Assembly: GCA_016748015.1 (NCBI GenBank)
Contig: JAAOMT010000630.1
Location: 352,708-416,707 of the forward strand
Origin: Geosiphon pyriformis
Lineage: Eukaryota; Glomeromycota; Glomeromycetes; Archaeosporales; Geosiphonaceae
Length of the DNA stretch: 64,000 bases
Direction: 5' to 3'
In this document: positions 905 to 59,839 of the stretch, in pieces
Position numbering within the stretch: position 1 is the first letter of the stretch
Layout: the number at the start of each line of letters is the position of its first letter
Translations under genes and position numbers: made by a program
Notes under the pieces: generated by a model
What the model was told of the DNA's origin: nothing
Seen by the model: the letters and a program-made list of their open reading frames with translations, nothing else
Databases searched by the model: none

Positions 905-2382
905 TTATAAAACTTTAAAAACTTCATAGTCTTGCATTTGTAGGCTACTATTTCCAAGGCTTGAAAAAATGTTGGGATAGGTGTGTACTGAACTGTGGTA
1001 CCAATAATTTCCACTTATATAAAAATCATGTCCACCACCAAAAGTTGGTCCATAACTAGAATAGTTATAAACAGCATATTGGTAATTGGTGGTAATTCGA
1101 CCAATCTGCCCTGATTGACTACTCGAATCCGAAAACTGAAAAATAAAAGTAGAATTCGAATTTTGGTAAGTTCCATTACTGTTCCAGTTTAGAGGATTAT
1201 AACCGCCAACAATAATATTGTTTGATGAAAGCTTTACGATAGTGAATGTAGGTCCTTTATTATCACATCTACTATGAAAATTTCCACTATCAAATCCATC
1301 CCGACTGGCGCGAAACAAGTTTTCAAATTTGTAGGAATGCTTTTGCTCTGATATCGAGTTCGTTCCTGCTATCCAATTACCGATTACTCTTGCGATCTTC
1401 TCATCAATTATAGTGGAGTCAATTTGAGCTCGTAATCGAGGTTTCAAAGTAGATTGAATTGGTATACTCGAATTCAGATAATGCTCAATGATGTTGTCAA
1501 AAAGAGGCTCGGAGAATACCCGCTTATAAGAGAAAACCTTGTGCTGAAAATCAGATGACTTAATCTCTTCCCATCGGATTAGAGGTAGCAGTGGTTCTAA
1601 GGTAGCTGCTACTGCGATGAAGTCTTCTCGGGACCATTTAGAAACCTCCTTTTTCAAAGATGTGTGTTGTGCCGTACCCCAATCAATTAAATACTCCCAA
1701 ATTTTTATTTCTTCAATGTCAAGGTCATCCCGTTTCAAGAGCATCAAAAGAATTGATCTGTCGATAGAGTGAAAACCCTTTGATTCAAAAATTAATTTCG
1801 GGTTTGCACAAATATCCTCGAGACAATAATCACGGATGCTGTGACACGCTTCATGTCTGAAAACAATATCAAGCACTTGCACGGGATTTTGGTTTAACCA
1901 TTCACGTTTCTCTTTGATCAAGTGTTGTTGTATATGAGCTGATAAATTATCCAATTCTAATTCATCAACTGCAACCAAAAGTTTCAAAATTTCTGGAGCT
2001 TCCTGACTTTTCAGGTCAACCGTTGCGCTGTATAAAAATCTATTTAGGTTTTGAAAAAGTTTTAACAAATGGTAACGATGTTTTAAAAATATTAATTAAA
2101 TGCTAAATATTCGAAAGCATACTTCAAGATAACGTCAAAAACTTTGGGTGAAATGTTCGGCTTTTTAAACACAAAAATTCCATCTTGTTTCTTTGCCCAA
2201 TTAGCTGATAGACCGGTGCGAAAGTAACGCGACCTCGCACATAGTATAAGAGAATGGGCTTTATATTCTTTAATGTTTGGTTTTTCACCGGCGCAAATAA
2301 TTACATCATGTGCATTGTTTTGTTCCAGAATTTTCCCAATATCAGCGCAAAATTCTTTTTGAAATTCGGAAACATCAGACAT
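905..2382 (-). CDS. BTB-BACK-TLDc domain protein (gene A)
   Basis: Two exons, 2123-2382 and 905-2039, joined across an 83-bp intron (GTATGC...AATAG) that splits codon 87. The product is 464 residues. The BTB/POZ domain covers about residues 13-116 (DVII, then KAHSLILCARSRYF), BACK about 120-210 and TLDc about 293 to the end. BTB-BACK proteins are generally substrate adaptors for cullin-3 ubiquitin ligases; TLDc is linked to oxidative-stress protection and V-ATPase binding. No substrate can be inferred. The start MSDVSEFQ matches the start of gene F, its closest relative over the promoter and front half; the C-terminal ~45 residues instead match gene E. A TATA box lies ~45 nt upstream of the ATG. 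The frame is intact, so it is probably functional. Confidence 0.92.
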
Positions 2383-9862: not shown

Positions 9863-11341
9863 ATGACCGAGGTTTCTAACTTTCAAATAAAGCTATGCGC
9901 TGATATTGGAAAAATTCTGGAGCAAAATAATGTACACGATGTAATTATTCTTGTCGGTCAAGAACCAAACGTGAAAAAGTACAAGGCCCATTCTCTTATA
10001 CTATGTGCGAGGTCGCGTTACTTTCGCATCGGTCTATCAGCTGATTGGGCAAAGAAACAAGATGGAATTTTTGTGTTTAAAAAGCCTAACATATTACCCG
10101 AAGTTTTTGAAATTATTTTAAAGTATGCTTTCGAATATTTAGTAATTGATGGTTATTTTTAAATGTCTTTACCATTTGTTAAACTTTTTCAAAACCTAAA
10201 TAGATTTTTATACAGCGCAACTGTTGACCTGAAAGGTCAGGAAGGTTCAGAAATTTTGAAACTTTTGGTTGCAGTTGATGAATTAGACTTGGATGATTTA
10301 TCGGCTCATATACAACAACACTTGATCAAAGAGAAACGTGAATGGTTACACCAAGATCCCGTGCAAGTGCTTGATATTGTTTTCAGGCATGAAGCGTGTC
10401 ACAGCCTCCGTGATTATTGTCTCGAGGCTATTTGTGCAAGCCCGAAATTAATTTTTGAATCAAAGGGTTTTCGCTCTATCGACAGATCAATTCTTTTAAC
10501 GCTCGTGAAACGGGATGACCTTGAAATTGAAGAAATAAAAATTTGGGAGTATTTAATTGATTGGGGTACGGCACAACACACATCTTTAGGAAAGGAGGTT
10601 TCTAAATGGTCTCGAGAAGATTTCACTACAGTAGCAGCTACCTTAGAGCCGCTGCTCCCTCTAATCCGATGGGGAGAGATTAAGTCATTAGATTTTCAGC
10701 AAAAAGTTTTGCCTTATAAGCGAGTCCTACCCAAGCCTCTTTACAAAAGCATCATCGAGCATTATCTGAACTCGAGTATACCAATTCAATCTACTTTGAA
10801 GGCTCGAGCCGCAATTCACATTGACTCCACCATAATTAATAAGAAGATTGCAGCTGTAATCGGTAATTGGATAGCAGGAACGAACTCGATATCAGAGCAA
10901 AACCATTCCTACAAATTTGAAAACTTGTTTCGCGCCAGTCGGGATGGATTTAATAATGGAACTTTTCATAGTAGATGTAATAACAAAGGACCTACAGTTA
11001 CTATTGTGAAGCTTTTATCATACAATATTATTGTTGGCGCTTATAATCCTCTACACTGGACCAGTAATGGAACTTATCAATATTCGGATTCTACTTTTAT
11101 TTTTCAGTTTTCGGATTCAACGAGTCAATCAGGACAGATTGGTCGAATTAACAACTCTTACCAAAATACTGTTTATAACCAATCTAATTATGGGCCAACT
11201 TTTGGTAGTGGAAATGATTTCTTTATAAATGGGACGTATTGGCGTCATTCTACAGGGAATAGTTATCCAAATATTTTTCCTTCCTTTAGTACAGGTAATA
11301 ACTATCAGATGCAAGAATATGAAGTTTTTAGAGTTTTATAA
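9863..11341 (+). CDS. BTB-BACK-TLDc domain protein (gene B)
   Basis: Exon 1 is 9863-10122, exon 2 is 10204-11341, and the intron is 81 bp (GTATGC...AATAG). The join splits Lys87 and continues into FLYSATVDLKGQEG, giving 465 residues. The BTB domain is about residues 13-116 (HDVIILVG, AHSLILCARSRYF). BACK is about 121-210 (HEACHSLRDYCLE, IKIWEYLIDWG). TLDc runs from about 293 to 465 (IDSTIIN...IGNWIAG, and the ending MQEYEVFRVL). The intron must be removed: an in-frame TAA follows GYF shortly after the BTB core. An AATAAA signal lies at 11446. The coding region and about 1.1 kb downstream are repeated in inverted orientation at gene D. The upstream region is not shared, and the GGCTATAAAA promoter box of its relatives is absent. 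The product is probably a cullin-3 adaptor-type protein, as for gene A. Confidence 0.93.
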
Positions 11342-18174: not shown

Positions 18175-19258
18175 ATGTCCGACATTTCTAACTTTCAAAT
18201 AAAATTTTGTGCAGATATTGGAAAACTTCTAGAGCAAAACAATACATATGATGTAATTATTCATGTCTGTCAAGAACCAAACATAAAAAAATATATGACC
18301 CATTCTCTTGTACTGTGTGCAAGGTCGCGTTACTTTCGCATCGGCCGATCAGCTACTTGGGCAAATAAAGAAGATGGAATCTTTGTATTCAAAAAGCCAA
18401 ACATTTTACCAGAAGTGTTTGAAATTATTTTAAGGTATGTTCTAAAATATTTAGCGTTTAAGAAATATTTTTAAAATATACTGAAAATTTATTGGCCTTT
18501 TTTAAAAACGGGCTAGATTTTTATACAGTGCAACTATTGACTTGAAGAGTCATTCAGCTCCAGAAATTTTGAAACTTTTAGTTGCAGCTAATGAATTAGA
18601 ATTGGATGATTTATCGACTTAGAACCACTGCTCTCTCTAGTCCGATGGAGAGAAATTGAGTTATCTGATTTTGATCAAAAGGTTTTGCCTTATAAGCGGG
18701 CATTGTGTGAATTAGAGTATACCAATTCAATCTACTTTGAAACCTCGATTACCAACTCAAATCGACTCCACTATAATTGATAAGAAGATCGCAAGAGTAA
18801 TCGGTAATTGGATTGCAGGAACGAACTCGATATCAGAGCAAAAGCATTCCTACAAATTTGAAAACTTGTTTTGCACCAGTCGAGATGGATTTAATCATCA
18901 AAGTTTTGATTGAAAATGTGATAACAAAGGACCTACAGTTACTATTGTAAAGCTTTCATCGAGCAATACTATTGTTGGCGGTTATAATCCTCTAAACTGG
19001 ACCACTTATGGAAGTGTGGGAAGTTATAGGAATCCTTTTATTTTTCATTTTTCGGGCTTAACAAGTCGATCAGGGGAGATTTGTCGAGCCATTCAGCGTG
19101 CCCACTACCCTTTTTGTGACTATCCTGGTTATAAGCCAATTTTTGGTGGGAGAAAATGGTTCTCTATAAATAAAATTGATTATAATTTTCATAGTAGATT
19201 CCTTCCCCTAATGGAGGAATTTATGATGTGCAAAAATATGAAGTTTTTCGAGTTTTAG
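18175..19258 (+). pseudogene. BTB-BACK-TLDc pseudogene (locus C)
   Basis: Exon 1 (18175-18434) still encodes an intact BTB start, MSDISNFQIKFCADIG, and keeps a GTATGT donor at codon 87. The exon-2 counterpart begins after CTAG near 18510 with RFLYSATIDLKSH. At about 18618 the text jumps from DDLS straight to the LEPLL part of BACK, with a stop. About 420 bp present in the intact genes is missing. A second deletion (~39 bp) lies near 18710, and a TGA interrupts TLDc near 18913. The TLDc tail still resembles the family to 19258. Its front is closest to gene E and its middle to genes A/F. It cannot encode a full protein; a truncated BTB-only product is possible. Confidence 0.88.
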
Positions 19259-22707: not shown

Positions 22708-24183
22708 TTATAAAACTCTAAAAACTTCATATTCTTGCATCTGATAGTTATTACCTGCACTAAAGGAAGGAAAAATATTTGGATAACAATTCCCTGCAGA
22801 ATGACGCCAATACGTCCGATTTATATGGAAATCATATCCACCACCAAAAGTTGGTCCATAACTAGGATTATTATAAACAGCATTTTGGTAGGTGGTAACT
22901 CGACCAATCTTCCCTGATTGACTACTCGAATCCGAAAACTGAAAAATAAAAGTAGAATCCGAATTTTGGTAAGTTCCATTACTGATCCAGTGTAGAGGAT
23001 TATAAGCGCCAACAATAATATTGTATGATAAAAGCTTCACAATAGTAACTGTAGGTCCTTTGCTATCACATCTACTATGAAAAGTTCTATCATTAAATCC
23101 ATCCCGATTGGCGCGAAACAAGTTTTCAAATTTGTAAGAATGCTTTTGCTCTGATATCGAGTTCGTTCCTGCTATCCAATTACGATTACAGCTGCAATCT
23201 TCTTATTAATTATGGTGGAGTCAATTTGAGTTGCGGATCGAGCCTTCAAAGTAGATTGAATTGGTATACTCGAATTCAGATAATGCTCGATGATGCTTTT
23301 GTAAAGAGGCTTGGGTAGGACTCGCTTATAAGGCAAAACTTTTTGCTGAAAATTTAAAGACTTAATCTCTCCCCATCGGATTAGAGGGAGCAGCGGCTCT
23401 AAGGTAGCTGCTACTGTAGTGAAATCTTCTCGAGACCATTTAGAAACCTCCTTTCCTAAAGATGTGTGTTGTGCCGTACCCCAATCAATTAAATACTCCC
23501 AAATTTTTATTTCTTCAATGTCAAGGTCATCCCGTTTCACGAGCATTAAAAGAATTGATCTGTCGATAGAGCGAAAACCCTTTGATTCAAAAATTAATTT
23601 CGGGTTTGCACAAATAGCCTCGAGACAATAATCACGGAGGCTGTGACACGCTTCATGGCGGAAAACAATATCAAGCACTTGCACGGGATCCTGGTGTAAC
23701 CATTCACGTTTCTCTTTGATCAAGTATTGTTGTATATGAGCCGATAAATCATCCAATTCTAATTCATCAACTGCAACCAAAAGTTTCAAAATTTCTGAAC
23801 CTTCCTGACCTTTCAGGTCAACAGTTGCGCTGTATAAAAATCTATTAAGATTTTGAAAAAGTTTTAAAAAATGGTAAAGACATTTAAAAATAACCATCAA
23901 TTACTAAATATTCGAAAGCATACTTTAAAATAATTTCAAAAACTTCGGGTAACATGTTTGGCTTTTTAAACATAAAAATTCCATCTTTTTTCTTTGCCCA
24001 ATCAGCTGATAGACCGATGCGAAAGTAACGCGACCTCGCACATAGTATAAGAGAATGGGCCTTGTACTTTTTCACGTTTGGTTCTTGACCGACAAGAATA
24101 ATTACATCGTGTACATTATTTTGTTCCAGAATTTTTCCGATATCAGCGCATAGCTTTATTTGAAAGTTAGAAATCTCAGTCAT
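21500..24183 (-). repeat. Right arm of inverted duplication (partner 9863-~12440)
   Basis: This is the reverse-complement counterpart of BTB gene B and its 3' flank. It carries extra segments absent from the left arm, for example ~22360-22400 and ~22020-22080. The right arm ends at the start codon of gene D. Upstream of that ATG the sequence is like pseudogene C, not like gene B. Confidence 0.8.
22708..24183 (-). pseudogene. BTB-BACK-TLDc gene D, single-base frameshift
   Basis: Exon 1 is 23924-24183, exon 2 is 22708-23841, and the intron is 82 bp (GTATGC...AATAG). All domains and the ending MQEYEVFRVL are present, and the sequence is very close to gene B. One base is missing near 23183: the other copies read AATCGGTAATTGG (IGNW) and this one reads AATCGTAATTGG. 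This shifts the frame at the start of TLDc and brings a stop a few codons later. With the base restored the gene would be family-length. It is either a very young pseudogene or an assembly or sequencing error. As written, it encodes BTB plus BACK but no TLDc. A polyadenylation signal lies at 22600-22605. Confidence 0.85.
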
Positions 24184-29937: not shown

Positions 29938-32239
29938 CTAATCTTTTTTACCTAATTCCCATAATCCTTCTCTCTCTCTTTTGTAACTATCAAATTCTTC
30001 ATCACTCTTTCCAACACTGTTTTTCTCATCACCATCAATATTCCTATTATAATTATGATCACTGTTTTTATCATCCTCATTATCATCATTATCATCATTA
30101 TCGTCATCTTCATTATCAAAATATATCCGAGCACGTTGCATCGCCTCGAAATATCTAATCGGTAAATGGTTTCTAAAAAAAGTAGGTAACACTCGTTCAA
30201 TCCAGATTAAAGGACTCCCAACAGGATGTTTGTAATTCGGTTCAGTACGAAAAACGTCTTTTCTACTGAACCACGGTTTACCATTTCGACAAAATTTTGA
30301 TTCGGTTTCACTGTCAGCCACTTTCCCTTCACTATCTAAAGAATTCCATCCAAACATCGAATATAATGAATAATTTCTTCTTTTTCGTTGTACAACGACC
30401 GGCTCAATTGCATTATCAAAAGAATCCCAAGTTGATACAGGTTTCCTACCATCCCGGAAAAACCTCATTCCTTCACCAACATGTGCATAATTTAAAAGAT
30501 TCATCTTGTTGATGAAACGTCTGATGCTAGGATCTTCATAGCCTGGTGGTAATTTCGTGATAATATCTGTATCATTTATTACTCGCCATAACATATTCGG
30601 CCTATCGAAAGGATCATTTGCAGCAGCTGCAAAATGTGCCGCAAAATCTGCATCACCGATAGCTGGAGTACCAAATAGATATCCATCTCGTAAAATACAA
30701 TTCTCATCAAGATCTGAAGGTGACTGAAGGAGGCGAGAGTAGAATAGAGTTCCTAGAGCAGCACCTAGTGAATGTCCTGTCACCCAAAGATTTATCGGTT
30801 GAGAATGTTCATTACTTGATGATGATGATGACAATTTTGATAATGAGCGAATTTGTAAAGCTTTAGCACGAACTGCTCTTATGATTGTTATGTATGGACT
30901 TGTTGCATGGCCTCTTGAACTTTTGTGACCTGCATCTGGAAAGAGGGACGTATAGAATCCTTCATGAATTTCCCCAAACACGAATCCTCTTTAAGAGTGA
31001 AACATTATGAGAGTAGTGAATTGTTTCATAGATATTATAAGCAATATTATTAATAAAAAAAACTATAGATTTTTATTTTAAACGTTTTGCATTTCAAAAA
31101 AATAAAAAAGTACCTCGCATCAACACGTTGAATCATCAAATCCACCAAAAAATCTTCAAAGTTAGTCGGCGTCGTTCCTTTAAATACAACCACAATGAAT
31201 CGATGTGCATATGACCAAAACATTCCAGCGAAGGGTCCACCCAAAGAGTTTAATTCCGATAACGAAGTAAATTCTAATCCCCACTGATCGGCTTGCTTGT
31301 GTATGCGAGCTTCACTTTCTCTCAATTGTCGATTCACCTCCTCGAAAGCTTCTGGAGTTCGTTTTACTTTATTTTTAGAGAGAGATGTAATCATTTTATG
31401 AGCATTACGAACCATCGTATCATCACGTTCATATACAATCGCTGACATGAGAAGTAGAGTTTCGGCGATATCGAGATTAAAGGGTCGAGTTTTCTTTTGG
31501 GTGCTTGTATCAGATTTTGCGGCCTCGTGTTGGTAAGCTGTTGTGGAGGGCAGGGGTTGGTCTAACCCTAGAATACCATCATTTACTATGTCACGAACTT
31601 CTTCCGAGAATATTCTTGGATCCCCTGGACATTATGAAATATAATGAATTTGAGTGTTTGTAATTTGATTGAGGGAATTATTAATTCGTTGAAATTATTC
31701 GATTGTAATCGAAATCGCTAAAATCTACTAGCTAATTCAAATGAATAAAAACACGCTTCGTATCTGTACTCACACCAATTAACAGGAGTCAAACCATCAC
31801 CCCATTTTTCTGAAACTCTGTTCAACACGTTTCCAAATCCACATAAAAAAGCCATATGTAATGATAACTCAATAATCACCAAAGAAACTACAATAGCGGG
31901 AAACACGGTAATGGTCAACATAAAATTCACTGGATGAAAAATTGGCATTGACCAATCAAATAATACTGTTAATAATAAATTTCGTATAGCACGATGAACA
32001 TAAACTACATAAGTTAACGAAGGAAAAAGTGTGGGAAGAGAAGTGAATGATTGGGTAGCTGTTGATTTATGTTCTGGTGTTTGTGTTAAATCTTTTAGAT
32101 GAGGACTGGCATCTTTATAATGCTTTACGTGGCCATTTAGAAGTGGAATTGATGTTTCACGATGGGGCTGAGAGGTTGAAGGTTGAGGTGGATTTGGCCT
32201 TTTGGGATTTTGATTTTGATTTGATTTTTGAGCCGACAT
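29938..32239 (-). CDS. Membrane-anchored class 3 lipase
   Basis: Three exons: 31774-32239, 31114-31624 and 29938-30988. The introns are 149 bp (GTGAGT...CCAG) and 125 bp (GTACTT...AAAG). Phases agree (1, then 2), giving 675 residues. Residues 1-~75 are a Pro/Ser/Gln-rich, probably cytosolic tail. About 80-140 are hydrophobic, with one or two membrane helices (MLTITVFPAIVVSLVIIELS). The alpha/beta-hydrolase part holds an IVVVFKGTTP strand (oxyanion region), the nucleophile elbow VTGHSLGAALG (Ser399), RVINDTDIITKLPP (likely catalytic Asp467), YAHVGEG, and RNHLPIRYF, whose His (about 600) is the likely third triad member. The family hydrolyses acyl esters of glycerolipids. The membrane anchor resembles diacylglycerol-lipase-like enzymes, but the exact substrate is unknown. 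The C-terminus is an Asp/Asn-rich run made by an ATC/ATT repeat at about 30060-30110. Confidence 0.92.
30060..30110. repeat. ATC/ATT trinucleotide repeat inside lipase exon 3
   Basis: Imperfect ATCATT/ATC repeats on the plus strand encode an Asp/Asn-rich tract on the minus strand near the lipase C-terminus. It is in frame, so length changes by three would only lengthen or shorten the acidic tail. Confidence 0.7.
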
Positions 32240-35399: not shown

Positions 35400-36864
35400 A
35401 TGTCCGACATTTCTAACTTTCAAATAAAATTTTGTGCAGATATTGGAAAACTTCTAGAGCAAAACAATACACATGATGTAATTATTCATGCCGGTAAAGA
35501 ACCAAACATGAAAAAATATAAGGCCCATTCTCTTATACTATGCGCAAGATCGCGTTACTTTCGTATCGGTTTATCAGCTGATTGGGCAAAGAAGAAAGAC
35601 GAAATCTTTGTGTTTAAAAAGCCAAACATTTTACCAGAAGTGTTTGAAAATATTATAAAGTATGTTTTGAATTTAAGAAATATTTTGAAAACATTCTGAA
35701 ATTTTCATTAACATTTTTCAAAACTCGAATAGATTTTTATACAGCGCAACTATTGACTTGAAAGGTCAGGAAGGTCCAGAAATTTTGAAACTTTTGGTTG
35801 CAGTTGATGAATTAGAATTGGATGATTTATCGGCTCATATACAACAATACTTGATCAAAGAGAAACATGAATGGCTACACCAAGATCCTATGCAAGTGCT
35901 GGATATTGTTTTTCGGCATGAAGCGTGTCACAGCCTCCGTGATTATTGTCTCGAGGCTATTTGTGCGAACCCGAAAGTAGTTTTCGAATCAAAGGATTTT
36001 TACTTTATTGATAGATCAATTCTTCTAATGCTGTTGAAACGAGACGACCTTGACATTGAAGAAATAAAAATTTTGGAGTATTTATTTAATTGGGGTACGA
36101 TGCAACACACATCTTTAGGAAAGGAGGTTTCTATCTGGTGTGGAGAAGATTTCACGGCAGTAGCAGCTACTTTAGAACCACTGCTACTTCTAATTCGATG
36201 GGAAGAGATCAAGTCATCTGATTTTCAGCAAAAGGTGTTGCCTTATAAGCGGGTCCTACCCAAACCTCTTTACAAAAGCATTATCGACCATTATCTGAAT
36301 CCGAGTATACCAATTCAATCTACTTTGAAGGCTCGAGCCGCAACTCGAATTGACTCCACTATAATTAATAAGAAGATTGCAGCTGTAATCGGTAATTGGA
36401 TAGCAGGAACGAACTCGATATCAGAGCAAAAGCATTCTTACAATTTTGAAAACTTGTTTCGCGCCAGTCGGGATGGATTTAATGATAGAACTTTTCATAG
36501 TAGATGTGATAACAAAGGACCTACAGTTACTATTGTGAAGCTTTTATTAAACAATATTATTGTTGGCGCCTATAATCCTCTACACTGGACCAGTAATGGA
36601 ACTTATCAAAATTCGAATTCTACTTTTATTTTTCAGTTTTCGGATTCGAGTAGTCAATCAGGGAAGATTGGTCGAGTTATCACCTACCAAAATGCTGTTT
36701 ATAATAATCCTAGTTATGGACCAACTTTTGGTGGTGGACATGATTTCTATATAAATGGGAATTATTGGTGCCACAGTTCAGTACATTCCTATCCCAATAT
36801 TTTTTCAAGCCTTAGAGGTAATAACCTACAAATGCAAGACTATGAAGTTTTTAAAGTTTTATAA
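35400..36864 (+). CDS. BTB-BACK-TLDc domain protein (gene E)
   Basis: Exon 1 is 35400-35659, exon 2 is 35733-36864, and the intron is 73 bp (GTATGT...AATAG), the shortest of the set. The join yields ILKFLYSATIDLKGQEG and a 463-residue protein. Domain order is as in gene B. BTB (MSDISNFQIKFCADIGKLLE) is closest to pseudogene C. BACK and early TLDc (LPKPLYKSII, KARAATRIDSTIINKK) are closest to B/D. The last ~45 codons (GGGHDFYINGNYWCHSS, MQDYEVFKVL) and the first bases after the stop match gene A. It is thus a recombinant. The frame is intact. No GGCTATAAAA box precedes it. AATAAA lies at 36967. Confidence 0.92.
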
Positions 36865-38426
36865 CCATTTAACTTGATTTTTCCCTTTAAAATGTGGTAT
36901 CTGACATGATTATTTCTTTGATTTATAAGTTTTTGTCAATTTGCTAGCGCGTGTTATCTGATTTTTAATAAAACTCAATAATTATATTTAATTTTCTATG
37001 GGCAAATTTATTTAAAAACGGTTTAGCATCATCTCATACAATTTTAATTTCAATTTATTGATAAATAAAAGTGGATTCAGGAGTCTCGAAAAGTATTAAA
37101 ACCATCCATGCCACTATTCATCACAAAACCTAAGCTATAATCATTGTAAAGAGAAAAAAAAACAAAGCCTCAAGTCTTACATATTATTTATAGGTTATAA
37201 AATCAACTGCTTTTCTATATACATTTTATCACCTGATAGCTCAAGTAAAAATTTCAAGTGAAAAAGTCAAGAATTAAACATATTTTACTTGCCATAAAAA
37301 AAATTCTTTCCCACCAAAATATCATTTTCTCATCGTTTCCGTTATTTTTCCGGTACCAACTCAAAATTCAGAATACTTCCTCGATTCGTGATTAAGTAGC
37401 AAATAGCACAGATAGTATGTATTAGAGATTAGACTTAGTCTTATAAGAGATTAGCAGAATGGAAAAATTTAGGTATAATAAAATTCTAAATATTTCGCTG
37501 TTCCATTCCTCTCTTCTACAATATTCCAAATAAGATTTTCCTTGCTAAAGAATATTTTTCAATATATTTTTATGAATTAATATTCATTTTGCACTATCAG
37601 ATTCAAAACTGATATTTTTCATTAAAGAATTTAAAATTTATCTTAAATTAGAAATGCAATAATATCTAATATTTCATATTTTTTATACATGTAAATTATA
37701 TTTTTATTTCCTGATGTCCTGATGTCTGGTTTTAAAATGAATTTTATATATTAAAAATGTGGTTCATAGGGGAATCAAAAAAAATACATATCTGAAATTC
37801 TCAAATAATCATTCGGACTATTCATTATGGAAACGAGTAGTGTGCACGATCTATGGCAGAAAGATTTTTTGGTTTTGTTTTATTAGCGAAATATATCATT
37901 AAGAAACTGATCTCCCGAATTTTGCGGAATTATTTATATAATACCAAGTTAAAAAATTTGAAATGAGATTTTTATTAATTTATTATTTTAAAGATTAAAA
38001 TCTTGGGGAGGCAAACCAAATTTCAAATACAAAATTATGTTTTACGGCTAAAAAATAGTAAAAATTTTTATCAATTTACAAAACTATCCTTGCAATTTAG
38101 CAAAATCATTATCTTCTTTTATTTAAGTCAATAAACTATAGCTAAAATTCAAAATTTTTGCTTCAAATTTAAAAGCAGATTATTAATTTGGTCAAAAACA
38201 ATTACATTTGTAAAAAGTCGACGAGGTAGATAAATTTACAAATATTTGATTTCACAAAAGTTATTTCTGCGAAGACAATTATTAATATATAAAAGTTTGA
38301 ATGTATAGTATAGCAGTATAAATAGCATCATTTAAAGCTGATTAAGAAAGTAATTTAGAAATTTAATAATACAGCGATCATACAAAAAAAATCTAATCAG
38401 CAAATTTAAATCACAACTACTTTTGA
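36865..38426. other. Intergenic downstream of gene E
   Basis: The first ~130 bp are the 3' flank of gene E, switching from gene-A-like to gene-B-like text. The rest has moderate to high A/T content with no readable frame or recognised element. Confidence 0.5.
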
Positions 38427-38836
38427 TATAAATTTATTATATGAAAGTATATTCTAAAATACATTCTAATAAAGTTGAACAAAAATTATAAATAATAATT
38501 AACATAATAAAATTTTAATTTTATTATATTTATATTTATTTTTTATTATTGCCAAACAAGTGTAGTCCAACCACCAACTATTGTATATTAGATGTGGATC
38601 AGGCTACAAACAACACGTGACCAGCCACAATAATTATTTAACTACTATCTTAAATGAATTCGCTATCCCTGATTTTTATAGCTTTTTTAATAACCTTAAA
38701 GAATTATTAGATTACTAAATACATATTCACTTAATAAAAAATCAATAGCATTAATTATTTTATTGCTATTTAATAAACATGCTTCATACTTATTTTAATA
38801 TATATTAATAACCAACTTAAAAAAACTCTATCCTGA
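38427..38836 (-). repeat. Right arm of ~410-bp inverted repeat (partner 437-846)
   Basis: Inverted copy of the LINE-tail-containing block beside gene A, including TTGCCAAACAAGTGTAGTCC. It runs directly into the assembly gap, so its true right end is unknown. The homology probably continues inside the gap, because the left copy has at least 436 more bases on that side. Confidence 0.85.
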
Positions 38837-39373
38837 NNNNNNNNNNNNNNNNNNNNNNNNNNNNNNNNNNNNNNNNNNNNNNNNNNNNNNNNNNNNNNNN
38901 NNNNNNNNNNNNNNNNNNNNNNNNNNNNNNNNNNNNNNNNNNNNNNNNNNNNNNNNNNNNNNNNNNNNNNNNNNNNNNNNNNNNNNNNNNNNNNNNNNNN
39001 NNNNNNNNNNNNNNNNNNNNNNNNNNNNNNNNNNNNNNNNNNNNNNNNNNNNNNNNNNNNNNNNNNNNNNNNNNNNNNNNNNNNNNNNNNNNNNNNNNNN
39101 NNNNNNNNNNNNNNNNNNNNNNNNNNNNNNNNNNNNNNNNNNNNNNNNNNNNNNNNNNNNNNNNNNNNNNNNNNNNNNNNNNNNNNNNNNNNNNNNNNNN
39201 NNNNNNNNNNNNNNNNNNNNNNNNNNNNNNNNNNNNNNNNNNNNNNNNNNNNNNNNNNNNNNNNNNNNNNNNNNNNNNNNNNNNNNNNNNNNNNNNNNNN
39301 NNNNNNNNNNNNNNNNNNNNNNNNNNNNNNNNNNNNNNNNNNNNNNNNNNNNNNNNNNNNNNNNNNNNNNNNN
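38837..39373. other. Assembly gap (537 N)
   Basis: Unresolved bases between the retroelement-tail repeat and the upstream region of BTB gene F. The gap length may be an estimate. A repeat running into the gap is the likely reason the assembly broke here. Confidence 0.99.
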
Positions 39374-39375
39374 CA

Positions 39376-39840
39376 GCTGCCATTTCTGATAAGATCCAAA
39401 ATTTCTGTGATTTTTTTATTTGCGTTTATTATAAAAAGATCACTGAAATCTTTTGATTTGAAAAAATTGCGTGAATAGGTGAGCGAAAGATTTTGCGCGA
39501 TTTTCAATTGTCATTGTTTTACCTTAAAAGTGAACAATAACAATGAAATTTTTCTTTACGCGGGTGGTATTTTTATCTCTTGAATAGGTTAGAAATTAAA
39601 CCTGAAATCTCGGTAAAATAAGCAGATGATCAAATATCTCGTTGGATAAACCTTATTCAAGTCTTAGAAATCAGCACAATGCAAATTCTCAAAGTTGCTA
39701 ATTGGTTTGCTTTTATTCCCTCCAATAATAACTAATACCAATTTGCGCTGCAATGCATACCTTTTATACCTTAATAAAAATAGCAAAACAGCGAAGCCAA
39801 TTGTCACATTTAATAAAATCCAATTCGAAAAAAGTAACGT
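39376..39840 (+). repeat. Upstream block of gene F, direct repeat of 34780-35290
   Basis: Same landmarks in the same order as upstream of gene E, with small indels (an extra segment near 39445-39490). It marks a local duplication that placed two BTB genes in tandem. Confidence 0.8.
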
Positions 39841-39954
39841 TTGCGCTTCCATTTGAAAATAAAAAAAAAGATTGAAGTTTTTAATTAGGGCGAACTTAAA
39901 TTTAAACTGTTTAAAGTGCATAATATTTCTCCCAGCCTATTATTGGTTTTTGGC

Positions 39955-39961
39955 TATAAAA
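39955..39961 (+). promoter_or_regulatory. TATA box of BTB gene F
   Basis: TATAAAA within TTTTTGGCTATAAAAACTAT, 58 nt before the ATG at 40013. The preceding ~110 bp also match the region upstream of gene A, so the whole promoter segment was inherited from, or converted by, a gene-A-like copy. Confidence 0.65.
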
Positions 39962-40012
39962 ACTATCTAGCTCATAATTTTTTGTACAGAACCTAGGAAT
40001 AAGAAATTTGAT

Positions 40013-41493
40013 ATGTCTGATATTTCCGAATTTCAAAAAGAATTTTGCGCTGATATTGGGGAAATTCTTGAACAAAATAATACACATGATGTAATTATCT
40101 ACGTCGGTGAAGAGCCAAGCATTAAAGAATATAAAGCCCATTCTATTATATTATGTGCGAGGTCGCATTACTTTCTCACCGCTCTATCAGCTGATTGGGC
40201 AAAGAAAGAAGATGGAATCTTTGTGTTTAAAAAGCCGAACATTTTACCCAAAGTTTTTGAAGTTATCTTGAAGTATGCTTTCGAATATTTAGTATTTAAT
40301 TAATATTTTTAAAACATCGTTACCATTTGTTAAAACTTTTTCAAAACCTAAATAGATTTTTATACAGCGCAACTGTTGACCTGAAAAGTCAGGAAGCTCC
40401 AGAAATTTTGAAACTTTTAATTGCAGTTGATGAATTAGAATTGGATAATTTATCGGCTCATATACAACAATACTTGATCAAAGAGAAACATGAATGGTTA
40501 AACCAAAATTTCGTGCAAGCGCTTGATATTGTTTTCAGGCATGAAGCGTGTCACAGCCTCCGTGATTATTGTCTCGAGGCTATTTGCGCAAACCCGAAAT
40601 TAATTTTTGAATCAAAGAGTTTTCACTCTATCGACAGATCTATTCTTTTAATGCTCTTGAAACGGGATGACCTTGACATTGAAGAAATAAAAATTTGGGA
40701 GTATTTAATTGATTGGGGTACGGCACAACACACATCCTTGAAAAAGGAGGTTTCTAAATGGTCCCGAGAAGACTTCATCGCAGTAGCAGCTACCTTAGAA
40801 CCACTGCTACCTCTAATCCGATGGGGAGAGATTGAGTCATCTGATTTTCAGCACAAGGGTTTCTCTTATAAGCGGGTATTCCCCGAGCCTCTTTTTGACA
40901 ACATCATTGAGCATTATCTGAATTCGAGTATACCAATTCAATCTACTTTGAAACCTCGATTACCAGCTCAAATTGACTCCACTATAATTGATAAGAAGAT
41001 CGCAAGAGTAATCGGTAATTGGATAGCAGGAACGAACTCGATATCAGAGCAAAAGCATTCCTACAAATTTGAAAACTTGTTTCGCGCCAGTCGGGATGGA
41101 TTTGATAGTGGAAATTTTCATAGTAGATGTGATAACAAAGGACCTACATTCACTATCGTAAAGCTTTCATCAAACAATATTATTGTTGGCGGTTATAATC
41201 CTCTAAACTGGACCAGTAATATAGGTTATGAATATTCGAATTCTAATTTTATTTTTCAGTTTTCGGATTCGAGTAGTCAATCAGGGCTGATTGGTCGAAT
41301 TAAGGCCTATAACCAAAATGCTGTTTATAACCATCCTAGTTATGGACCAACTTTTGGTGGTGGAAATGATTTCCTTATAAATGGGACGTATTGGCGTCAT
41401 TCTGCAGAGAATAGTTATCCAAATATTTTTCCTTCCTTTAGTGTAGGTTTTAACCATCAGATGCAAGAATATGAAGTTTTTAGAGTTTTATAA
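40013..41493 (+). CDS. BTB-BACK-TLDc domain protein (gene F)
   Basis: Exon 1 is 40013-40272, exon 2 is 40356-41493, and the intron is 83 bp (GTATGC...AATAG), giving 465 residues with the family's domain order. The promoter, BTB (MSDISEFQKEFCADIG), BACK and early TLDc (EPLFDNIIEHYLN, LKPRLPAQIDSTIIDKK) match gene A. The last part, from about NDFLINGTYWRHSA to MQEYEVFRVL, matches genes B/D. This is the reciprocal of the tail arrangement in gene E. The frame is open throughout. AATAAA lies at 41553. Expected role as for gene A. Confidence 0.93.
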
Positions 41494-46723: not shown

Positions 46724-48184
46724 TCAGTTCCTCAACATTAAAGAATGGTATTTATTATGTTTTTTTATATGACCATATGTATAACCAAAATAAGGACCAT
46801 CATATGTAAATTTGGGTTCATGTTCAGGTTGTGCATTATTACAATACTATAAAATAGAATTCCCCAATTTAATCCTAATCTAGCTTAAAAGAAAATCAAA
46901 ATTTTCAAGAAAATTGCCTACCGGATTTTCTATCAATATATCTTCATCTTTATCATCTATCACAGGACAATAAATTAAGTCAAACCTATCACAATCGCAT
47001 TGAGTTTTGATCCAGTATTCCATCCCTGGATGTACATACATAACGTGAGCTATATTACTCGTTTGGAATGGGAATCTAGTAATTTGGTCATCCATTAAAG
47101 TGACTCGGTATACTGTTAATTGATTGTTAACATGTCTTGCAAATTCCATATTCCCAATTCGTGGTAATCCAAAAGTATAGACAATAAAATTCTCAATTTT
47201 TGAAGAGAGCTCTTGAATCAGCAAGGCTGTAAATATTGCATATACTATATTTTTTAAAATGAAAAAAAAATTAAGAAATTCTACCACTACAACCAAAATA
47301 AAAATGTGTGCAGCAAAATATACCTCCTCCTAAGCGATGTCCAAGTAAATAAAGGCCTGTTTTTGTACTGGTATTTATCATATTCAATAAATATAATATT
47401 ATTTCATCTTTGGCTTCCAAGAAATCAGTATAAAAGATTTTATCAACCTTTGCATCTTCAATATCGGGATAAGATTTAAATATATTTTCTCGGTTTTTAT
47501 TCCATGTGCTCAAGTACCGAATTTCAGGGGCTATTATAGTAAATAACATTGTATGATGTGTAATATCAACTCTTCCTATAGAAAGTGGAGAAATTCTAAT
47601 TCAAAATTTTTAATTCAATTGACAGATACGGATTGAAAAGTTTAATTACAGAAAATACCTCTAATTTTGTAATCTTTTGTAATATATCTTAATTTATCAG
47701 GATTATAATTGTCTGCCAAATGTTTTGCGAATTGAGTAAATAAATTAATTTTTTTTTTGCCTTGAACTTGAGTTGGTTTCACAAGTTCTTTCTCCAATGT
47801 TGGTTCCATAAGTTCTTTCTCAAATTCAGAGTCAATATTTCTAGCTGATAAAATATCTCTTTTTGTTTGAGCTGATTGAAAACTATTTTGTCGTTTGTTT
47901 TTACACTTCTTTTGTCGAGTTTTTCCTAGAAATTTTTTAGAGGATAATCGGCAATAATTTTTAAAGATAATTTCTGTATTGAACTTTTTATCCTCATTCT
48001 TCTTGGAAATGATCTTTTGTTGTTTTGGAAAGGTTATAATAATTTTATTCCGATCGAGAGATGCTATTTTGTCTAAAATATTTTCTGAATTATTCCAAAT
48101 CTCTGCATTGGATTTGATTAAAATATATTGAAAATATTCAAATATAGTGACAATAATTAGAAAAATGATAAAGGAAGAAAACAT
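46724..48184 (-). CDS. Secreted-type class 3 lipase with catalytic Ser replaced by Arg
   Basis: Four exons are inferred: 47659-48184, 47324-47530, 46922-47226 and 46724-46846. Donors are GTATTT, GTATAT and GTAGGC; acceptors are AATAG, ACAG and ATAG. Phases match, giving 386 residues. It opens with a signal sequence or anchor (MFSSFIIFLIIVTIFEYF). A long Lys/Asn/Ser-rich stretch follows, then the lipase fold: FAKHLADNYNPDKLRYITKD, the elbow LLGHRLGGALLIQ, TFGLPRIGN, and RVTLMDDQITRFP with the usual Asp (291). The family elbow is GHSLGG. Here residue 241 is Arg (codon CGC at 47334-47336), one base from AGC Ser, so normal hydrolysis is not expected. The RGT oxyanion strand is also not evident and the catalytic His is unclear. 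Intact splicing suggests a pseudoenzyme or a very recent pseudogene. A broken paralogue lies at 43262-44140. Confidence 0.8.
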
Positions 48185-52110: not shown

Positions 52111-55009
52111 ATTTAAATTAATATTGCTAGATTTATGCAATTGCTATTAAATAAAAAGACACCAAATTGCAAACATTATTTCAGATTAAAAAAATTTTGT
52201 TACTTAATCCAAGATTAAAGATTATTCTGATAATATAAGCAACAGTACAGTTAATACTATAATTTATAAAATTGCTTATTTATTTTTTATTCTATTTGTT
52301 TCTATTCAAAAAAGGTTTTTTTTGGCAGATAATATTACAGTTTTTAAAAATGCTTAATATTTTGTTTGTAATATGTATAAAACTATGTATTATGCTCAAT
52401 AAAAAACAGATTTTAATATTGAAATAATAAATAGCTTTTTAATTAAAAACATTAATTACATATATATTTTTTTGGTATAGTATTCCAATTTACACATGTT
52501 GTCTGAATTTTTTCTTAAACATATTGCCAATTTATGTATTTATTTAATAAAAACAATTTACAAATAATTGTTTTTAATAATTAAATAAAATTTGTATAAC
52601 AAATATTACTTTAGAGTTTTATGTTTGTATTATAAAGAAACAGATTTTTTAAATCAAGTTTTTACTTTTAAAATAAATGTTAAGTATTATAAAAAAATAT
52701 TATTAAATTATAATAGTTGTTAAAAATTATTAGCTAGTATGCAGTTTTTTTATTTTTAGTTTTACATATTTTATTTTTTGCTCTTTAGATAATAACTTAT
52801 ATACTGCTTTTTATAAGAGTTTTATTTTTAAAAATTAATATATCAAATTTTTTTAATCTAAAAATATTAAGACTACTTTTGTAAAATTTGTAATTTTTAT
52901 GTACAGTTAATTATTAGTTATAAAAACAGAATTCGGTTACATAGATTTAAATATAAAGCTACTATAAAAAAAAGTTGATTAGTAATAATAAGTTAATGCT
53001 TTATATAATATATAGTTTATTAAACAGGTTTTCTGTTGGTGTGATTTGTATACTCAGTATAATTAAAACATATATGATAAATTTTGGTTTGTGTAATTAT
53101 TGCTTTTTTCAGATTTTAAGTAGTAAAGTTACAGTATATATATATATAATATAATTTTAATTGTTCCAAGTAATTAGTTATATGTAAATTATATTTAATA
53201 AAATTTACTTAGTCTAATTTTTATACTAAATAATAATCGGATCTTACTGATAAAACATAATAAAATATACAATTTTAATAAATTAATTAAAAGATTATAG
53301 TTATATAATTATTATAAAGTTTAAAATTAATTAATATGTAAATTTATTATTTAAAAATTAAAAATTTTAAGTTTTTTATTTTATTATTTATAAATACATA
53401 AATTAATAACTAAAATAAAAAAATATAAATTCTTAATTAAAAATAAAATAAAATAAATAAAAATATAAAATAAAAAAGCTTAATTGAGTATATTTTTAAG
53501 AAAAATCATCATTATATTATTTAATACCAGCTAAGTATATTGTTAATAAATAATATTTATTTGTATATAATTGTTTAAATATTATAATTAATATAAATAG
53601 ATTCTTTATAGTCTTTATTATCTTTATCTAAATCTTATTTTTTATCTTAATATTTTATTCTTTTTTATTCTTTTGCTTATATAAGTTTTTAAATTAACAC
53701 AAAATCTTAAAGTTATATAACTTTACTTATTATTACTAATATTATTTTATCCGTTGTATTTTATAATAAAATTAATATTCAAAATTATAACTGACAACAG
53801 TATTTTTATTTTTAAATTTTTTAGAATATATTATACATATTATATTTTTTTAAAATAATAAATTTCAAATAACATAGCTATGTATATAATAATAATATTA
53901 ATAATTAAAGTATTTTTGAGTTTTATAAATATAAATATGTTAAAATAAAAACAATTTACAAATGTTGAATTATAAAAATGAAAAATATTGTTAATAAAAG
54001 CTTATATATTCTTATTAATAATTACAAAAATAAAACAAGAATTTAAAGGACAGTAAAACTTTTAAAAAAATAAAAAAAATTACAATAATAAAATTTATAA
54101 GTTTTGTTTTATACTTTTGTATAAATCGATAAAAATGTGTATAAATTAAAATTTATACTAAAAAAAATCAACTTTTTGTTAATTTTTTAAATATCTGATT
54201 AATTATATAATAATAATTATTTATATTAAAAATTGATTGTTTGTTAACTTTTTAAATATTTTTTTAAAAACATGAATTGTTATAATGCCTATTTGTATAT
54301 ATTAAATTAGATTTAATGTAAATTAATTGTTAAATATATGACAACAATTGTTTATACTAAAAAAAAATTAACTGTTTACTGATTTATTAAATGCTTTTTT
54401 AGAAATATAGATTGTTATATTGTTAATTTACATGTATTAAATTATATTTAGTAAATATTAATTGTTAAATTTATAATAATAGTTGTTTATATTAAAAAAA
54501 ATTAATTATTTACTAATTTTCTAAATGTTTTTTTGGAAATATAAGTTATTATAATATTTATTTATATATATTAAATTAAATTAATGCAAATTAATTATTA
54601 AATATATAGTAATAGTTATTTATATTAGAATAAAACAGTTGTTTATTGGTTTTTTAAATAGTTTAAAATATAAGTAATTTTAATATTAATTTGTATATAT
54701 TAAATTAAATTTAGTATATATTAACTATTAAATAAATAATAATAATTATTTATACTAAAAAAAATCAACTGTTTATTGATTTTTTAAATGTTTTTTTAAA
54801 GCATGTATTATTATAATATCTATTTGTATATATTAAATTAAGTATAATATAAAATATATATTAATAATTGTTTATATTAAAAAAAATTAATTATTTACTG
54901 TTTTTTAAATGTTTTTTTAAAAACAAAATTTGTTATAATATTAATTTATATATATTAGATTAAATTTAGCACAAATTAATTTTTAATTATATTTATTATA
55001 GTTAAAACT
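52111..55009. other. AT-rich spacer containing a tandem repeat
   Basis: No gene is seen. 52111-53100 may hold further unrecognisable retroelement sequence. 53150-54120 is low-complexity A/T. 54150-54990 is a degenerate tandem array, described separately. Confidence 0.5.
54150..54990 (+). repeat. Degenerate tandem array, unit ~123-137 bp
   Basis: The phrase ACTGTTTACTGATTTATTAA and its variants recur near 54233, 54368, 54505, 54637, 54767 and 54890, with a further partial unit before them. Each is followed by a TTTTTTTAA-type run and TTGTATATATTAAATTAAAT. A single related unit lies at ~62205-62290, beyond the other end of the LINE. Spacing shortens slightly along the array (about 135 to 123 bp). 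Confidence 0.7.
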
Positions 55010-55129: not shown

Positions 55130-56060
55130 CATTTATTACATGTGGCCAGCCATTTAAGCCAAACAAGACAACACTATACATTTATTACAACTTTTATATT
55201 GCCAATCAAACTCAAAAAGAAAAAACATGATTTATGTCTATCAAAACTAATAGCAAAAAATTCAGCAATACTAAGAAGTCAGACTATACTATCTGACAAC
55301 TCAGCCACCAAGCCATAAAACACATTGTACACTACCTCACCATCATTTGTCAAGCCGGTTTTTTCTATCTCAGTCTTAAATATAGCTCTACTAAGCCAAA
55401 TCAGTGAACAATGCTTCTTTACCAATTAACTTATAAATAAAACAACAGCTTTTTTCTTAGTGTCAAACATCACTAATACTTCCATGCACCAGTCTTTAAG
55501 CATAAAATTCTTACAAATCACAGTGTACAAGTTCACATCTACTAAGCAATAGAAAAGAGTTTCCAATACAACAGATGACAAAAGATTATATGAACCAGCC
55601 ACAAAAATTTACTTGTCAAAAAACTCTGCAAAAATATTTTTATGGCTTTTAACATTTTCAATACATGTGAAAACATGATCCAGAAGCTTTATTTTACTAT
55701 ACAGCAAACACAACACATTTAAATAATTCTTATTATATAATTTTTTTCTAACCACCACTAATAAATATCTATATACAGTCTTTATTAAATAAGTTCACAG
55801 ATTAGTAAACTTTTTATTGGTAAAATCAAACAATATATATAAATTAGGGTGCCATATCTTAGCAGTAAACAGCCAATTCACTTTTTTAATCAAAACATTA
55901 AGTACCACTCAACAACTTGGACCAATTTTTTATTGAACACAAGAAATAAAACTGTATATATTCTGAATGAAATAATGTGTATTGTCAAAAACAGTTATGA
56001 CATCAGCCATAATATAGTGTTCTTTAACTCTAATTGGCAGAAACAAATGAGATTCAGCTG
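55130..56060 (-). pseudogene. LINE ORF2 C-terminal region, decayed
   Basis: Downstream of RNase H, the minus frame reads through segments such as VKEHYIMADVITVFDN, TAKIWHPNLYILFDF, VVVRKKLYNKNYLNVLCLLY and LLDHVFTCIENV. This Cys/His-containing stretch (CLLYSK...HVFTC) is in the position of the zinc-knuckle-like C-terminus found in many LINE polyproteins. Several TAA/TAG stops interrupt it. Confidence 0.6.
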
Positions 56061-56480
56061 CCTTACTAGCCATTTGATTAACCTTATTATTATTCTACAT
56101 CCCTAAATGATCCTTGATTTTTATCCATTCAACTGAGAGATTTTTATTCCTTATTAAATTGTGTATATGTCTATTTAACAACAATTGCAAAAATCTGGCA
56201 CAGCACAATTAATCACAACAACACATGTATTAATAGCCATCTGACTGTTTATATATAGAACCACTATACAAAAAAAAGAGACACATTCCAAAAACAAAGC
56301 AACAGTCTGTAGCTTGATCAAAATAAATGGCAGGAAATCATCTACTCCAATGCCAATACCTATATCTGCAGCAGAAAAATATGCAGCAACTTTATTAGTG
56401 ACTTTAAAAAAGCCTTAGTTCTTTAAGAAGCTGTCTGTATACATGTCCAAAGCATTTAATCAAACCTTATGCAAATGTTC
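56060..56480 (-). pseudogene. LINE RNase H domain, decayed
   Basis: The minus strand reads KVAAYFSAADIGIGIGVDDF, then ILIKLQTVALFLECVSFF, YINSQMAINTCV and WIKIKDHLGM. This follows the RNase H order (first strand, ELxAhxxAL helix, DSxxA, then VKGHxG...N). The DSQ catalytic Asp reads Asn in YINSQMAI (56230-56262), and Glu of the ELQ motif reads Lys (IKLQ). The domain cannot be active. Confidence 0.65.
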
Positions 56481-56999
56481 ATGAATCTCAAAAAATCCAA
56501 CAGAATCCAACATACTTAAAATACAATATCTATTAATATGTAAAAAAACAAATATTATTGGTTTATTATTATCCTAAAACTTTAAAGTCAATTTGAATCA
56601 AAATAGCATTAAGCCCCTGATATCTAACTTTTTCCAATAACAAAATGTCTTTCAATCCATAACTCTGTTTTTTTTATCCAGAAGTTTGTTATTAAACATT
56701 ACCCCAAACCTCCTAAGAGAATAAACCAAATTATAATACAAAGACTTTTTAAGAATATTAGACATTAAGACTTTTCTGGGACTGCAAAAAGCATTAAGCA
56801 AGATGTTATCTAAAAACAACTTATTAACCAAAAAAATTCTTATAATTTCAGCCAAAAAGTTATTGACAGAACTAACTTGCAACTTAATAAAATGTTTCAA
56901 AAAATTTGAAAGAACCCAACCCAGAATCTGCAGATCCAAAAATTGATGTTCAAACAAATGCCCAAGGATGTCTAGAGTATTAGTAAACATAATCACTAA

Positions 57000-58320
57000 T
57001 AACATGCTCTCAGTCTAAATCTGTTTGAATGACTTCAAATTATACAGAGAAGAATAGTACAAAGTTTCACTTGAGAAGTCACATGGCAAACCAGTCTTGA
57101 ATTTAAAACTTTTTCTAATTAATATATCTCACTTATAATACACACTTGGCAAGACAAAACTAAACTGAGACCTATAGTTAACTATAAGCTGAAAAATAAC
57201 CAACACTAAATAAGAAAACAGCTTATTAGTAATAATTTTTTTAAGCACCACATTAACAAAAAATCAAATATTTGAATAAGTTTTTGCTAGACTTGGCTTA
57301 AACAGCCTTTCAGTTGACAAAAAAATACTCAGATACTTATGTAATTCTCCCTTCTTGGTAATTAAAATTGACAGCCCACCAATCTTTAAAAAAGTAATTT
57401 TAACACTTTGATTAATAGAGATAATCACAGTTTTTTTATAGTTGATTAAAATGTTATTAACCCTAAAAAATTCACTTACAATGTTTAAAACATACTGTGT
57501 AGAAAACTTGACAGTTCCCAACCAAGATCATATTGTCTATAAATAAATCAGCAGCAAAAAACAAAGACATTCCACCAATATTTTCTATCCTGCTCATTTT
57601 GGCAACAAATCTAATATTAATTCAATATTTACACAAATATTTATGTCTCTTAACCTTATATAACAATAAATTATAAAAAATTTTCCAAAGGAGAAGTGAA
57701 AAGATTTCATCTTGGTCCAATTTATTATATATTCTGTAGCCTTCTGAGAGACCAAAATCAGTTATTATTTTATTAATTTTATCTTCATGTATGTTACTAA
57801 AAAACCCAATAAACTTTTTGCATATTTTAATTCATTACAAGCTAGCTCTTAAGTAATGCTAACTAACTAAGTTATATGTTTTACACATATTCTATAAGAC
57901 CAACCAAAGTTTTTTGTTCTTTTTTAAAGCATCATTAACTACCAACCTGACAGTAAACACAGGAGACTAAGTAAATGTATTCTTTAAAACTGAAAAATTA
58001 TCATCCCAAAAAACACTAAATCTGCTACATATAACTAAAATCTAATTAGAAAAAACTTTGAAAAGAATTTTCCTAGCCATCTTGATCAAAACAATAGGCC
58101 AAGTGTTTGTCAAAATCTTATTCCAATCATAAGGTTTTGAAATTATTGAGACCTAAGTCTTTTTTCATAAAACAAGAATACTACTAAAGAACAAACATGC
58201 ATTCAACAACTCCAGAAGACATCTCATTATATCATCACTACTATGCTTTCAAAGTTCATTAAAAATAACAGACAAATCAGCAATCTTGCCATTGAACAGA
58301 CCACCAACCACCAAGAGCAA
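57000..58320 (-). pseudogene. LINE reverse transcriptase, decayed
   Basis: Fingers/palm landmarks can be followed on the minus strand: FNELxKHSSDD, ISKPYDWNKILTNTWPIVLI, then CKTYNLVS, LDQDEIFSLLLWKIFYN, FFAADLFIDNMILVGN and SEFFRVNNILINYKKT. RT motif A (normally K-A-Y-D) reads KTYN, near 57855-57885, and the motif-C Asp-Asp pair reads Asp-Asn (FIDN, near 57530-57560). At least one frameshift follows motif C. The thumb-like part continues to ~56650 and matches the plus-strand fragment at 51380. Confidence 0.75.
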
Positions 58321-58699
58321 TTTTTTTATATTGATCACACCTATTATACCAGAGAAAACATTATTATTTATATAATCTAACAGCAAATATTGGTGAGCCC
58401 AAAGATTAAGCATTACTAAAAGCACATTCTATTTCCTTGTTCATCTTTCCATAATCTTATCAACACTGAGTTTTATATCTTCTAGTTCTAAAACCAACTT
58501 ACTTTCTACTATCAAGTAATTCAAAACTATCTTGTGAAAAGACTGATTCAGAATACTTTTAATTATACTCTCTTTATTAAAACAAAAACTTTTTATGTAC
58601 TTCTCAACAGCCTTTTTAATAGAAGTTTTTTTAGCTAATCTTAACTTGTAAAGCTTGGGCTTCTTGTATTCTTTATAAATCATTAATAAATGTTTGAGA

Positions 58700-59825: not shown

Positions 59826-59839
59826 CTTTCTATACTAAT

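Follow-up and report, generated by a model that had tools for sequence, protein, structure and literature searches.

Several described systems bear on the locus reported here. A gene conversion model has been put forward for the rDNA copies of Rhizophagus irregularis (PMC6123716). In the portions of two accounts drawn on here, arbuscular mycorrhizal fungi are described as having expanded BTB/POZ families, high in copy number and sometimes arranged in tandem (PMC8647823, PMC9453076). The MATH-BTB and F-box adaptors of Caenorhabditis elegans form a large family in which a conserved adaptor part carries a fast-changing head (PMC4334554). For the TLDc domain, a glycine-rich loop has been placed between β7 and β8 of NCOA7-AS (PMC8329711). 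In the literature library searched, no paper combined TLDc, BTB and arbuscular mycorrhizal.

As with the rDNA of R. irregularis and ectopic conversion generally, the cluster examined here shows short, probably non-reciprocal tracts between copies on the same contig and a patchwork of identity; unlike the rDNA, its genes are protein-coding, and a divergent cassette is kept as two types and not homogenised. With the BTB/POZ families of arbuscular mycorrhizal fungi it shares high-copy BTB genes in a repeat-rich fungal genome, whereas TLDc heads, tail exchange and a variable C-terminal half do not appear in the portions of those accounts drawn on (PMC8647823, PMC9453076). Base composition and the expanded BTB families suggest that the DNA itself comes from a glomeromycete. 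The likeness to the C. elegans adaptors lies in the large family, constant adaptor and fast-evolving head; the head is TLDc and not MATH, and in the wider family its variable part has a dN/dS of about 0.8 whose interval spans 1, which leaves positive selection unproven. The mechanism behind the mosaic genes is already of a known kind, and the variable half of TLDc is the more interesting lead.

The window, by which we mean the whole stretch of 64,000 nucleotides analysed, corresponds to positions 352708–416707 of contig C368 in an assembly of 124.7 Mb, and is AT-rich. At least 149 TLDc matches were found in the genome. With the gene E protein as query, the assembly gave seven full or near-full loci at about 78% identity or more, all on C368 and counting among them the decayed gene C (61% identity over a part only); the next protein matches fell to about 35–37%. 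Six of the seven are genes A–F of the window, and the seventh, gene G, lies 29 kb to its left (Table 1). Gene H begins 3.5 kb past the start of G, with its body inside an N run of 1664 bases, and the two-gene block G–H parallels block E–F. The genes consist of a BTB exon, one intron of 73–83 nt and a BACK-TLDc exon; A, B, E and F encode intact spliced proteins of 463–465 residues, whereas exon 1 of gene G carries a 1-nt insertion and the gene has lost its stop. N runs that could hide copies lie at C368:327254–328917, 340017–352707 and 391544–392080; one of the N runs of the region sits between E and F. The run at 340017–352707, 12.7 kb long, abuts the left edge of the window near the 3' flank of A and may hide further copies. 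In E, the 415-nt block shared with that flank has been displaced downstream, about 1.49 kb past its matching point. Near the BTB genes, at 29938–31631 and 46880–47600, are two class 3 lipase genes or fragments.

Table 1. Coordinates of the BTB-BACK-TLDc genes and their parts (window positions unless a contig is named)
Feature	Position	Strand	Remarks
Gene G	C368:323394-324868		outside window; seventh close copy
Gene H	from C368:326927 (L021 7928-8250)		outside window; F-like eighth copy, start only
Gene A	905..2382	(-)	type 1 tail; intact, 464 aa
Gene B	9863..11341	(+)	type 2 tail; intact, 465 aa
Gene C	18175..19258	(+)	degenerate; large exon 2 deletion
Gene D	22708..24183	(-)	type 2 tail; frame broken by 1-nt deletion near 23183
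E exon 1	35400..35659	(+)	BTB domain, Pfam BTB 1e-8; donor GT at 35660
E intron	35660..35732	(+)	GT..AG, 73 nt; splicing gives one frame, 463 aa + stop
E exon 2 body	35733..36585	(+)	BTB remainder, BACK, TLDc first half; Pfam BACK 3.4e-6, TLD 1.1e-20; B/D-like from ~36117 (S3 tree A,F,G versus E,B,D, support 100)
E segment S4	36586..36735	(+)	almost identical to D and G; the breakpoint first noted arises at its 3' end
E tail	36740..36864	(+)	type 1, with A and G; A,G,E versus F,B,D 100/100
E 3' flank	36865..36986	(+)	A-like ~30 nt, B/D-like from ~36930 (alignment)
Shared block	38422..38836	(+)	415 nt, 99% to A 3' flank 437-851; ends at N run
F exon 1	40013..40272	(+)	BTB; A-like; pairs with A in S1 (99.6/100); donor at 40273
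F intron	40273..40355	(+)	1/76 differences versus A
F exon 2 body	40356..41206	(+)	A/G-like; A-F dS 0.010 in S3
F odd segment	41207..41359	(+)	~84-91% to every other paralog; unlike all
F tail	41365..41493	(+)	type 2 cassette, common to B and D

All three domains of the BTB-BACK-TLDc family were found by Pfam. The BACK match of F scored 1.3e-6, and the TLD match ran over positions 4–169 of 170 in E and over positions 4–140 in F (1.2e-17). An AlphaFold model of E minus its first exon had a mean pLDDT of 82, with values of 64–89 in the tail. Foldseek aligned the TLDc part with NCOA7-AS, mEAK7 and Oxr1, and the BTB-BACK part with KLHL11 and KBTBD2; judged by fold, the proteins are similar to BTB-BACK adaptors of the CUL3 type that bear a TLDc head. 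In contrast to NCOA7, mEAK7 and Oxr1, the domain is here fused to BTB-BACK and is 12–18% identical, and binding to CUL3 or to V1 of the V-ATPase would be a hypothesis drawn from fold similarity. By motif and strand order, the GPTFGGG boundary described below appears to correspond to the β7–β8 loop of NCOA7-AS, in which case the exchanged tail would comprise β8, β9, a long loop and β10 of the TLDc head.

Nucleotide alignment and recombination testing, as the initial annotation had proposed, gave positive results by PHI, maxchi and a GENECONV-like scan. For the seven close paralogs (A–G), PHI was 0.122 against 0.361 when permuted (p = 0.001). The GENECONV-like scan returned global p ≤ 0.004 for the pairs AF, AG, AD, FG, FB and GD, and 0.0075 for AB. 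Maxchi gave p ≤ 0.001 for F and A, its largest signal having A as F + E (chi2 = 100.8; break at F 41206/41221, E 36583–36598), and Hein-type parsimony also placed breakpoints. A Hudson–Kaplan Rm of 32 was set aside as inflated by repeated hits at sites. Trees differed by segment: exon 1 with the intron gave (A,F), (G,E) and (B,D), each with about 100 support; the mid-body (E 36117–36584) separated A, F and G from E, B and D at 100; and the tail (E 36740–36870) separated A, G and E from F, B and D at 100/100. AU tests rejected the body trees when these were fitted to the tail, and likewise the tail tree when fitted to the mid-body (p < 1e-10), and a single tree for both gene halves is refuted by these tests together with PHI. 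The genes are thus made of segments that back different trees, with significant breakpoints, as expected of a gene conversion mosaic. Mosaicism, breakpoints, tail types and divergence contrasts are direct results.

Sites at which A = G differ from B = D were then compared between parts of the genes by Fisher's test. Gene E favoured B/D by 40:11 across 36117–36584 and stood at 10:24 from 36740 onwards (p = 1.2e-5), which bears out a B/D-like body with an A/G-like tail; gene F changed from 3:48 in the body to 31:1 in the tail (p = 3e-18). The boundary between body and tail is the GGTGGTGGA block, the last body-type sites being E 36705–36709 and F 41331–41335 and the first tail-type sites E 36747–36761 and F 41373–41387. 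A breakpoint near the GPTFGGG codons is real on the evidence of site types, maxchi, segment trees and AU tests, and the last ~45 codons do fall into two types, A/G/E (type 1) and B/D/F (type 2). Nor is the tail peculiar to E and F: the cassette of F is also present in B and D, and other parts of A, D and G show mosaic structure. In A the 5' part is F-like and the 3' part G/E-like, G combines D-like and A-like parts, and D is E-like from about 36300 to 36735 (E coordinates).

Taken part by part, the two genes are less simple than first described. The B/D likeness of E, said to run up to GPTFGGG, holds from the mid-body but not in exon 1 and the intron; exon 1 is of a G/C-like lineage, pairing with G at a support of 99–100. 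In segment S4, synonymous divergence is low (0–0.08) among A, G, E, D and F, and E shows 0/32 synonymous differences from G and 1/32 from D, with 96–99% identity to both. The E tail is of type 1, but is "like A" only to that extent: 8–10 sites private to A and G have the state E=F=B=D, and its dS to A and G (0.16–0.22) is no different from that of the E body. The likeness to A was also said to continue past the stop, which it does briefly; the flank is back to the B/D type within at most ~70 nt, and E need not be the recipient. For F the types had been called correctly, but likeness to A ends at 41206–41221, about 150 nt before the 41350–41370 originally given, and F joins B/D only at 41359–41375 (maxchi break with F as A + B, 41359/41365). 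A GENECONV-like F–B fragment spans 41375–41447 (global p = 0.003); the 3' end of the F tract is poorly fixed, being blurred by a deletion. The stretch F 41207–41359 differs from A, G and E at ~15 nonsynonymous but 1–1.5 synonymous positions by simple count.

The two tail types are strongly diverged, with dS of 0.5–1.1 between them, where bodies reach 0.32. Type 2, common to B, D and F, forms an island of ~130 nt with flanks only ~10% different; the UTR directly after the tail likewise differs by only ~10% between A and B/D. Divergence between types exceeded that of the body by Fisher's test for AB, AD and GB (p ≤ 0.0002) and for EB (p = 0.037), whereas E–A and E–G showed no such difference (p = 0.79 and 0.58). 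Among the B, D and F tails there was no synonymous difference (0/22 for F against B and D). A search of the genome for a donor of the cassette found only the six known loci. Comparison with C (5 type 1, 7 type 2, 11 neither) did not decide which tail is older, nor did a profile of the larger subfamily described below, used as outgroup, in which the tail adds 3–6 bits for both types.

These observations are probably best explained by repeated, non-reciprocal ectopic gene conversion among BTB-BACK-TLDc paralogs, with occasional crossover-like joins and two tail cassettes; conversion as the process, its direction, the missing donor and function are what we infer. Short stretches would have been pasted repeatedly, one way, between close copies of the cluster. 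The ~130-nt type 2 cassette was probably imported from a divergent donor into the B/D lineage, because the types are far more diverged synonymously than their flanks, while the distances among A, G and E stay at the level of the body. Gene F would then have come recently to share its type 2 tail with a B/D-like copy, whereas no move is required of the E tail, which is at the normal distance of E from A and G. What looks like a breakpoint in E would for the most part mark where a homogenised stretch common to E, D and G stops on its 3' side. Such conversion would reshuffle part of the TLDc head surface, the tail being β8–β10.

It is unlikely, though it has several points in its favour, that A is the main recombinant, formed by unequal crossover from an F-like 5' part and a G/E-like 3' part and flank, F having kept the older combination of body and tail. 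The strongest maxchi signal is of this form, the flanks of A are F/H-like on the 5' side (154 nt) and G-like on the 3' side, and the pair G–H parallels E–F. However, F and G share the mid-gene too, which calls for another event, and the divergent tail island and the 0/22 among B, D and F would be left unexplained.

Somewhat less likely still, in our judgement, is the reciprocal tail exchange between E and F offered in the initial annotation, which would take a double crossover or a two-way conversion. In the alignment, the breakpoints of the two genes fall together near GPTFGGG, and set against the mid-body the tails look crossed, but one moved lineage suffices to reconcile the mid-body and tail trees. 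Incompatible site pairs between mid-body and tail stood at 0.53 with all genes, 0.06 without F and 0.08 without E; the conflict collapses when either gene alone is removed, so only one recombinant lineage is needed. Both timing predictions of a swap also failed. The E–A tail should be as diverged as the F–A body, yet 4/21 against 9/179 synonymous differences were observed (p = 0.035), or 4/21 against 1/104 for F–A in the adjacent segment (p = 0.003); the F–B tail should match the E–B body, yet 0/22 against 32/185 were observed (p = 0.029). As only ~21 synonymous sites underlie the tests of the tail, and later homogenisation of the A/F/G mid-body would weaken the E–A comparison, these small counts amount to moderate evidence. 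The tail, of 130 nt, has ~10 sites private to A and G, but the mid-body, of 468 nt, has 2; barring later homogenisation of the mid-body, this implies that the E tail predates the A–F split. A swap also leaves the strong divergence between the tail types unexplained, and neither partner-like tail distances nor two moving lineages were found for E and F. Flank homology was rejected as proof of a swap, because insertions and N runs have fragmented the flanks of E–F and G–H too far for events to be dated. Recombination between paralogs stands; the mismatched ends of E and F are real and strongly supported, and the timing and one-lineage tests make a reciprocal exchange an over-interpretation.

It is very improbable that the tails came to look alike without recombination, through selection on amino acids of a convergent or diversifying kind: hypervariability does mark the C-terminal half of TLDc across the wider family, but synonymous sites divide along the same line as the amino acids (A–B 12/21 in the tail against 27/183 in the body), and a shared 3-nt deletion and one UTR site follow the tail split. 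An assembly that joined reads of different paralogs is no more credible, for although N runs occur in the region, the breakpoints do not adjoin them, and a recent chimera is unlikely because the E and F tails are 4–9% from every other copy, none being ≥99% identical.

Beyond the cluster, a second, larger and dispersed BTB-BACK-TLDc subfamily (L030–L054, on other contigs) comprises 77 matches, mostly of 63–94% amino acid identity. For 19 of its loci, the last ~97 aligned codons were compared with those before them. The C-terminal part had dN of 0.23 and dS of 0.29, against 0.074 and 0.22 before it, giving dN/dS of ~0.8 (95% interval 0.59–1.16) and ~0.33 (0.27–0.42), respectively, with codon bootstrap intervals that ignore shared ancestry. 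C-terminal dN was 2.4–4.1-fold higher, with dS nearly unchanged (ratio 0.90–1.81), and windows reached a dN/dS of 1.37. This hypervariability reflects either relaxed constraint or diversifying selection; the interval spans 1. PHI was weak in this subfamily (0.494 against 0.511, sd 0.009), and mosaicism is not clearly family-wide.

The segment exchanged in the cluster falls within the part of TLDc found to be hypervariable in the dispersed subfamily; this yields a testable idea on the role of expanded BTB families. We suggest only tentatively, and with more doubt than conviction, that in a family of >100 genes a conserved BTB-BACK chassis bears a variable recognition head, formed by the C-terminal half of TLDc and diversified by amino acid substitution and, within clusters of this sort, by cassette exchange; it would be a fungal counterpart of the fast-evolving MATH-BTB and F-box adaptors. 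Each gene of the cluster carries several histories, and in repeat-rich fungal genomes mosaic paralogs of this kind lead gene trees, orthology and dating astray. Elsewhere in the window, an AT-rich tandem array of about six copies of a ~133-nt unit occupies 54198–54992, and GC skew is strongly negative (−0.25 to −0.32) over 56000–60000, where the ORF tested had no Pfam match.
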